From positions 1-32,848 of the forward strand of contig JAQBRQ010000015.1 in NCBI GenBank assembly GCA_028286385.1: a DNA stretch of 32,848 nt, read 5' to 3'. A model generated the notes under the pieces. That model saw only the letters and a program-made list of their open reading frames with translations, was not told the origin of the DNA and made no database searches. Made by a program: the position numbers and the translations under genes. Shown here one piece after another: positions 21,450-23,471 of the stretch (within the stretch, counting starts at the first letter, position 1; every line of letters begins with the position of its first letter). The DNA is from Candidatus Saccharimonadota bacterium (GTDB lineage Bacteria; Patescibacteriota; Saccharimonadia; Saccharimonadales; UBA4665).

Positions 21450-22313
21450 TTAGTGTAGGCCCCAGTGGTTAGCGCCGAGCGCCCGGATTTTGCCGCTTAG
21501 TTCTAGCATGGTGACTGATTGATTAAACATGCTTGCTGTTAAGCCGCTGCGCTCCAGTAGTTGATTCCCGTCGGCGATGCCGCTAAAAAGCAAATCAAGC
21601 AACAGCTGCTCAGGTTCATTGGCTCCCTTGACCGCTGGAGAGCTGCTATGGGGCGCGCTTATGCCTAACATGTGCATAACATCCACATATGATGTTGCAG
21701 GCGCCGCACTGGTCTTAAGCAGGTTGTTGGCGCCCACCGAGACGGTACTGGTTATGTTGCCGGGAACCGCCATGACATCTTTGCCCTGCTCCAGTGCAAA
21801 TCTGGCAGTGTGTAAGCTGCCGCTGTTAACAGCGGCTTCGGTTATGAGGAGGACGTCGGCCAGACCGCAAACCAACCGATTACGCTCAATAAAATTGAGC
21901 TTATACGTTTCTTCCCCGGCGCCGTATTCGGTGATAAGCCCTCCCCCGTTATCCAAAATGCGCCGTGCCAAATATTGATTAGTTGCCGGCGCGATGCGCT
22001 CCAGCGGGCTGGGCAGAACGGCTAACGTAAGCCCGCCAGCATCCAGCGCTGCCTGGTGAGCCAGCGCATCTACCCCAATGGCCAGGCCACTAATAATCAC
22101 AATGCCCTGCTCTGCCAGCTGCCGGGCGAGCATCATAGTCACCTGTTTGCCATATGGCGTGACGCTGCGGCTGCCGACGATGGCCACTCGAGGTCGTGCC
22201 AACAATTCTTCTAGTGGTATGCCGCTGTAATACAGCTGTTCAGGCGGCTGTGGAATATGCCGCAAAAGTTCTGGAAACAGGGGTGAGTTAAGCGTGAGCT
22301 TGTTGATCTTCAT
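21450..22313 (-). CDS. dprA: DNA-processing protein DprA/Smf
   Basis: A 287-residue DprA, which binds incoming single-stranded DNA and loads RecA during natural transformation. The Rossmann-like core shows GSRSVTPYG at 47-55, SGLAIGVDALAHQAAL at 75-90, and RNRLVCGLADVLLITEA with the following SGSLHTARFALEQGKDVMAVPG. The C-terminus (about 225-287) is a winged-helix DML1-like domain. The N-terminal SAM-like domain is nearly absent, so the protein is shorter than the 360-residue type. A -10-like TAAAAT (22322-22327, minus strand) lies eight bases before the ATG, suggesting a leaderless message. Head of the dprA-small-topA unit, divergent from the structured RNA. Confidence 0.94.
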   Translation of the reverse strand: MKINKLTLNSPLFPELLRHIPQPPEQLYYSGIPLEELLARPRVAIVGSRSVTPYGKQVTMMLARQLAEQGIVIISGLAIGVDALAHQAALDAGGLTLAVLPSPLERIAPATNQYLARRILDNGGGLITEYGAGEETYKLNFIERNRLVCGLADVLLITEAAVNSGSLHTARFALEQGKDVMAVPGNITSTVSVGANNLLKTSAAPATSYVDVMHMLGISAPHSSSPAVKGANEPEQLLLDLLFSGIADGNQLLERSGLTASMFNQSVTMLELSGKIRALGANHWGLH

Positions 22314-22332: not shown

Positions 22333-22361
22333 TTGACACTAAGTCACTTATTTGCTAGAAT
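22333..22361 (+). promoter_or_regulatory. Consensus promoter of the structured RNA
   Basis: TTGACA at 22333-22338, 17 bases, TAGAAT at 22356-22361. The expected start of transcription is near 22368. It is among the best promoters in the window. Confidence 0.8.
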
Positions 22362-22367
22362 AGCAAG

Positions 22368-22775
22368 TCGTGAGTTCATATATTGTTCTCAGGTACCTTT
22401 TACCCCCAAATACTAACATCGTATGCCTCTCAGGCGTACGAAATACTGTTAGATTGTTTTAGAGTGAGCTTCGCGAAAAAGTTGTTACCCTCCACTTATC
22501 CTTTGCACGTCAGGCATAAAGTCTGACACGCTCTAAAGCATACTAACCCCTTTAACTAGATTCCTCGATGACTTGCTCGCAAGGCCATCCCGGGGTCCCC
22601 GTTCAAAGTGAGCCTAAATGGTAATCGCCCCTGTTACAGGAGTGGTTGGCACGAGTCATTAATTTTAGACATCGATGCTTCACTGGGGTGGGTTGAAGGG
22701 TTCTGGGGATGATTTCGGTCGTCCCCTAAAACAGGCCAACGAGCGGTGCCCACCCCCTCTCGTTGGCCTTTTTTA
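22368..22775 (+). ncRNA. Candidate structured non-coding RNA, about 405 nt, family not recognised
   Basis: Bounded by a consensus promoter and a strong terminator (22733-22774), with no ORF of note between. Several hairpins can be read: CTAACA/TGTTAG enclosing CGTATGCCT/AGGCGTACG (about 22413-22452), TTTAGAG/CTCTAAA enclosing GTCAG/CTGAC (about 22459-22537), CTTGC/GCAAG near 22573-22583, and GGGGATGA/TCGTCCCC with a TTTCGG loop (about 22705-22726). GGGGTGGG at 22685-22692 is complementary to CCCACCCC at 22749-22756, in the terminator loop, so a pseudoknot or competing structure is possible. Size fits tmRNA or RNase P RNA, but their hallmark sequences were not found. Could be a divergent form of one of them or a new RNA. 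Confidence 0.68.
22733..22774 (+). terminator. Strong Rho-independent terminator of the structured RNA
   Basis: AGGCCAACGAG (22733-22743) pairs perfectly over 11 bp with CTCGTTGGCCT (22759-22769), followed by a run of six T (22769-22774). The 15-nt loop contains CCCACCCC. Confidence 0.88.
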
Positions 22776-22836: not shown

Positions 22837-23133
22837 ATGAAATATAAGAAGCCAGAATTTATCATTTGGCCGCATGAAGCAGAATTGCTTGAATTGCCAA
22901 AAGACGAGATTTATCATCATGACCAGGTTGATTTGTTGCATGTTGCAATACAGCAAGCCGGCTTAAAGTTAGCAGAACGATATGTTCAAAACTTCGACGG
23001 TTTGCGCCAAGAGGGTCAGGATGTGGACTACGCATTCGATATTTTTGATCATGTGGAGTCGCGGGCAGGCACGCTGATGAGTATGGGGATTATCGTTAAA
23101 AGTGTCATCTTGGAGCAAGCCGCGCAGCAGTAG
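22837..23133 (+). CDS. Unknown 98-residue acidic protein
   Basis: No family recognised. A soluble, mostly helical protein with an acidic bias and a His-rich patch near the middle (DEIYHHDQVDLLHVA). It ends in Gln/Ala. It follows the structured RNA terminator by about 60 bases and has a dyad just upstream. The next gene starts 17 bases after its stop, so they form a pair. Ribosome site is poor (ACGGAT). Confidence 0.6.
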   Translation: MKYKKPEFIIWPHEAELLELPKDEIYHHDQVDLLHVAIQQAGLKLAERYVQNFDGLRQEGQDVDYAFDIFDHVESRAGTLMSMGIIVKSVILEQAAQQ

Positions 23134-23150: not shown

Positions 23151-23471
23151 ATGGAAGATATGATTGGCAGTATGGCGTATTTTACTCCTGCGGAAAGAGA
23201 GCTAACTGGCTTTGATGGTCCAAGGTCGATCGAGGATGTCGATATGAGAGTGCATCATGAAAGAATACGTGGCCGACGAGCATTCGTCCAAGGAAAGTTA
23301 GCAGAACTTAATGGCGACTATGAGCAGTATCACGCTCGAACTGCTGAGCTTGAACAACTTGAGTGGGACGAGGCCACCCTTATGGATATTGAATTCGACA
23401 TTACTAAACAACGATCTGCCATCGCTGACGCCTTATTTGATAAGCAGCTCAATTTATTTGGCCAAGAATAA
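23151..23471 (+). CDS. Unknown 106-residue helical protein
   Basis: No family recognised. A charged, Glu/Arg-rich protein whose middle and C-terminal parts (HERIRGRRAFVQGKLAEL, then YHARTAELEQLEW) look like one long helix or coiled coil. TACAAT at 23139-23144 stands six bases before the ATG, so it may have its own leaderless transcript, and CGGAG could also serve as a ribosome site. It converges on pth with only 21 bases between the stops and no visible terminator. Confidence 0.55.
   Translation: MEDMIGSMAYFTPAERELTGFDGPRSIEDVDMRVHHERIRGRRAFVQGKLAELNGDYEQYHARTAELEQLEWDEATLMDIEFDITKQRSAIADALFDKQLNLFGQE

Follow-up and report, generated by a model that had tools for sequence, protein, structure and literature searches.

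A stretch of DNA next to dprA, taken in a preliminary description for either a very divergent housekeeping RNA or a new class of structured RNA, raises the questions of whether it is an RNA gene at all, whether it belongs to a known family and what it may do. It was analyzed within the window, by which we mean the whole stretch of 32,848 nt, a contig belonging to a draft genome of 832 kb.

An RNA gene with its own promoter and terminator

Positions 22368-22774 almost certainly hold a real, new structured RNA gene. The noncoding RNA is about 407 nt long and lies on the + strand, as do its promoter and all the elements described below; its 5′ end was estimated from the position of the -10 box and its 3′ end from the T run. 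Homologues were 253-504 nt long (median 367 nt). The promoter originally proposed, TTGACA-N17-TAGAAT, was present at 22333-22361, with the -35 box TTGACA at 22333-22338, a spacer of 17 nt, the -10 box TAGAAT at 22356-22361 and an extended -10 (TGC). A -35/-10 pair was found in 140 of 141 non-redundant homologues, at a spacing of 17 in 127. The -10 region TTTGCTAGAATAGCAA (22351-22366) is near-palindromic and largely conserved among homologues, which may reflect a regulator site or chance. None of the three + strand frames was open across the RNA stretch, in agreement with the preliminary description, and a protein-coding reading was rejected given this result and the many indels between homologues. 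The fold energy was -147.6 kcal/mol for a 408-nt stretch compared with -110.5 kcal/mol for shuffles (z = -6.4, 0/100); the mean fold z of 15 homologues was -6.1.

The RNA adjoins dprA (minus strand, 21450-22313), on whose far side lies topA, and is followed downstream by two small ORFs (22837-23133 and 23151-23471) and then by pth and der, both encoded on the minus strand. The two small ORFs showed no Pfam match, and tblastn searches of the remaining homologous loci gave no match to them. Among the 141 non-redundant homologues, dprA was divergent and upstream of the RNA in 103, and pth was convergent and downstream in 105, often right behind the terminator. There was no dprA match near the RNA in 28 loci having room for dprA. 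Because pth is convergent in 105 loci and 28 have no dprA match nearby, the RNA is not the leader of one neighbor; because it lies between divergent and convergent genes and has its own promoter (140/141), it is an independent gene.

Distribution

Saccharibacteria (TM7) are tiny host-dependent cells, of which cultured members exist. A blastn search of 40 near relatives, which represent 17 families, detected the RNA in 39. Model R1, a covariance model covering the P3/P4 domain, gave matches in 23 of 380 phylum genomes, all of the same order; the broader covariance model R2, under strict filters, gave matches in 203 of 393 class genomes and 108 of 153 genera, the order being the same in all, among the matches listed. 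Under laxer filters, weak matches were obtained in 15 of 21 order members (a set that includes ten weak matches of the strict R2 search), and all 15 had a promoter match and the terminator loop GCCCACC; five genomes from other orders of the class gave no match under these filters. No match was found in several genomes of genus g45 or in genomes G006, G205 and G405. Outside Saccharimonadales there was none in the class (393) or phylum (380) samples, among the matches listed, and our working statement from these samples is that the RNA is confined to this order, throughout which it is probably present with few exceptions. It is retained in genomes down to 0.6 Mb. The preliminary description had made a functional RNA depend on conservation and covariation in relatives; homologues across the order retain the RNA far beyond chance.

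The records carrying homologues were labeled Candidatus Saccharibacteria, Saccharimonadia, Patescibacteria, TM7 or bacterial MAGs, and one was labeled Chloroflexi. The homologue in this Chloroflexi-labeled MAG (L111, SEAL01000024.1) reflects either a mislabeled bin or a real transfer. An intact-looking copy was also observed on a contig classed as viral (L110:7940-8370, IMGVR_UViG_3300049064_000004), where its neighbors are phage-type genes (DNA methyltransferases, RecT-like, exonuclease/FtsK-like); it is either a phage copy or the result of prophage insertion next to the gene of the host. The phage records searched for the RNA gave no match.

Conserved helices

The 5′ hairpin P1 (22372-22390) is variable in sequence, with alignment columns 6-12 pairing with columns 20-26 and some double changes. 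Beyond it, the homologue comparison revealed a near-invariant strand, ACCUUUUACCCC (ACCUUAUACCCC in many), at 22395-22406. Pair counts among homologues define a long helix, P3, with the 5′ strand GUUAG-AUU-GUUUUAGAGUG (22448-22466) and the 3′ strand CGCUCUAAAGC-AUA-CUAAC (22529-22547). Element a, CUAAC at 22413-22417, can also pair with GUUAG 22448-22452, for which it competes with CUAAC 22543-22547; P3 is supported because in homologue L069 the two CUAAC-type elements have separate partners. The hairpin P4, AAGU[UGUUACCCUCC]ACUU (22479-22497), has a nearly invariant loop core, and this loop was predicted to be unpaired at 0.85-1.0 in 15 homologues. In the MFE fold, a variable hairpin, P5 (22509-22527), lies inside P3.

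The alignment underlying R1 showed too much conservation to be informative. In alignment A3 (47 sequences), to which divergent families were added and which was fitted to the R1 structure, so that the pairing figures are favored, 98.6% of cells in P3 and P4 were paired compared with 88.4% in shuffles (0/500), and compensatory, both-side changes were observed at 15 of the 20 pairs (5.9 when shuffled) and in 76 cells (11.7 when shuffled; 0/500). Slid versions of the A3 helices were 30-49% paired. In the raw sequences, whole P3 helices were visibly swapped for other complementary ones. Since P3 is self-complementary, the antisense strand scores weakly with R1, and antisense-strand rows of this kind were taken out ahead of pair counting.

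The 5′ strand of P6, CCCUUUAAC (22548-22556), pairs with the 3′ strand GUUGAAGGG (22692-22700); across 130 distinct sequences its pairing was complete (100%), and three of its pairs together showed 13 double changes, a result that 0/500 shuffles matched. The variable domain has an inner hairpin, P7 (22560-22596), which is a family-level feature with several double changes, and a remainder (22597-22684) that was folded with RNAalifold from close homologues. P9 pairs AGUGA 22607-22611 with UCACU 22680-22684, and P8 can form between the strands CCCC 22597-22600 and GGGG 22685-22688. For nine close homologues, RNAalifold gave 91 pairs, 29 of them with double changes. A penultimate hairpin (22705-22726) is optional and missing from many homologues.

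Terminator hairpin and possible pseudoknot

The RNA ends in a terminator hairpin (22733-22774) with the loop CGGUGCCCACCCCCU (22744-22758) and U6. An 11-bp stem with T6 had been described correctly: AGGCCAACGAG (22733-22743) pairs with CTCGTTGGCCT (22759-22769), and the T6 is at 22769-22774. Nine terminator-stem pairs counted in 130 distinct homologues were 99.8% standard (63.9% shuffled), 8 of them with double changes. The loop was almost fixed, being CGGTGCCCACCCCCT in 80 and TGATGCCCACCCTTA in 36. In an ordinary terminator, one would not expect the stem to change while the loop stays fixed. As judged from sequence comparison, the promoter, the terminator, P3, P4, P6, the terminator stem and the C-rich loops are conserved.

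The complementary strands on which a pseudoknot had been suggested, GGGGTGGG at 22685-22692 and CCCACCCC at 22749-22756 in the terminator loop, were both found in place. The first strand (GGGGUGGG in the RNA) is conserved in most homologues. For the pseudoknot together with ALTERNATIVES, we observed that both GGGUGGG and the terminator loop are conserved, and that the two complement each other. The pseudoknot GGGGTGGG/CCCACCCC is plausible, as both strands are conserved across the order; the core hardly varies, so that covariation cannot prove it. In the window's family, CCCC 22597-22600 offers GGGG an alternative partner, a pairing for which one compensatory change (in L007) was observed.

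Comparison with known RNA classes

None of the Rfam 15 families reached its gathering score at the locus. With lax thresholds, the window stretch together with eight homologous and twelve divergent loci gave chance-level matches or none, so the Infernal search suggested earlier assigned neither the locus nor the 20 homologous loci to any family. MIR4378, TEG147, isrD and AaHKsRNA82 were rejected, their matches being far below gathering scores.

The tmRNA (RF00023) and the RNase P RNA (RF00010) are like the new RNA in size and in their housekeeping-like distribution, and the length of the new RNA would fit a divergent form of either, but they differ in that this genome carries genuine copies of both at other sites. 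At this locus, there was no match with the covariance model of RNase P RNA class A or, for tmRNA, with either the covariance model or ARAGORN. The RNase P RNA was found on another contig (G000:C10:20264-20627, 254 bits) and in 38 of 40 relatives, and the tmRNA was found on a further contig (G000:C13:4105-4496, 61.5 bits, above the cut-off). The presence of both elsewhere in the genome and in nearly all relatives argues against this identity, which is vanishingly improbable. Of the two original possibilities, the new class stood, whereas tmRNA and RNase P RNA fell.

The 6S RNA model (RF00013) and the SRP RNA models (RF00169 and RF01854) gave no match at the locus or in the window's genome. In 21 order genomes, neither the small nor the large SRP RNA model gave a match above the cut-off; all 21 also lacked the Ffh M domain (PF02978), which was present in 14 of 14 controls; missing SRP subunits in many CPR bacteria were already reported (PMC8080830). 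The raiA/ModT model (RF03072) had no match at this locus and none above the cut-off in 21 genomes, where its two weak matches both fell outside the homologous locus.

The family is new in that no RNA family known so far matches it. In its general type, it is comparable to further orphan structured RNAs, among them the raiA motif/ModT, whose function long remained unknown. Both are stand-alone, compact RNAs a few hundred nucleotides in length that have their own promoter, are widespread in a lineage and contain a pseudoknot, which in the present RNA is a plausible one. The known hosts of raiA/ModT are Bacillota and Actinomycetota (PMC11706538), whereas those of the present RNA are Saccharibacteria. 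OLE, ROOL and GOLLD are also large structured RNAs of unclear function (PMC12286853), but differ in that there is no Rfam match here. No earlier description of the RNA was found in the literature outside bioRxiv, most subscription journals and supplements, and an unnamed listing is possible. Thousands of candidate RNAs were predicted in human microbiomes in a report whose text does not name Saccharibacteria (PMC8040213), and only 2 ncRNAs were reported for one complete oral Saccharibacteria genome (PMC8830319). Standard annotation would not name the RNA because it has no Rfam family.

Proposed function and alternatives

The most likely function, which we infer from the conserved elements, is that of a housekeeping-type trans-acting RNA within an RNA-protein particle. 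Once the 3′ terminator hairpin is completed, its loop CCCACCCC would dock on GGGUGGG beside P6; docking would close the pseudoknotted core, so that only complete transcripts would mature. P3 would keep the hairpin P4, with its exposed loop UACCCUCC, away from the pseudoknotted core, and the exposed loops may be where a conserved partner, either a protein or an RNA, makes contact. RNA and protein would together form a particle of the housekeeping type, not a cis-regulator. Counting against the particle, loops that hardly vary would be just as compatible with an RNA target. We give the model as a whole (a new family and a trans-acting RNA in a particle) a probability of about 0.5.

LhrC and RNAIII are C-rich-loop regulators, and the present RNA is like them in its exposed C-rich loops, the terminator loop among them. 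As a trans-acting regulator, it would use these loops (UACCCUCC in P4 and CCCACCCC in the terminator) to bind Shine-Dalgarno or other G-rich sites in mRNAs. Both loops are near-invariant and predicted to be unpaired, and the P4 loop is UACCUCCAC in some divergent members, which is close to an anti-Shine-Dalgarno sequence. The conserved fold is a different one, however, and complementary sites were not common near 449 ORF starts obtained by simple ORF calling in the window and homologue loci L111-L190: upstream of these starts, GGAGG was seen 3 times compared with 4.6 expected and GGAGGG once compared with 0.8. The weak Shine-Dalgarno signal was AAGGAG, and -10-like boxes lay close to the starts, as with leaderless mRNAs. 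An anti-Shine-Dalgarno role is thus disfavored, and such a regulator is unlikely. In the same set of starts, TATAAT/TATACT was strongly enriched just upstream of the start codons and Shine-Dalgarno motifs weakly (AAGGAG, 13 compared with 1.8), which suggests that many mRNAs may be leaderless.

A functional counterpart of 6S RNA, binding RNA polymerase, would by analogy account for a discrete RNA with a strong promoter in a genome without a 6S match, but the supported structure lacks a long single hairpin whose central bubble resembles an open promoter, and the near-invariant loops are located elsewhere, so that we consider this role very unlikely. The preliminary description had also suggested an antitermination switch. 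In such a cis switch or attenuator, P8 (CCCC/GGGG) and the pseudoknot would compete with each other and thereby control termination into the downstream gene, and GGGG 22685-22688 is indeed able to pair with either strand. However, pth lay downstream and on the opposite strand in all 105 loci where it was found; the small ORFs next to the RNA in the window have no match in the other loci, and outside the window's family no P8 strand was observed. A switch of this kind is highly improbable.

The trans-acting RNA in a particle thus remains the preferred reading. The RNA is kept order-wide, in genomes as small as those noted above and with a nearly unchanging core, and is likely to have a basic role. 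More tentatively, and at somewhat less than even odds, this order-wide, probably essential RNA would be the core of a Saccharibacteria-specific RNA-protein machine. If so, such a machine would belong to a lineage where the search for an SRP detected neither its RNA nor Ffh, and where no 6S RNA was found in the window's genome.
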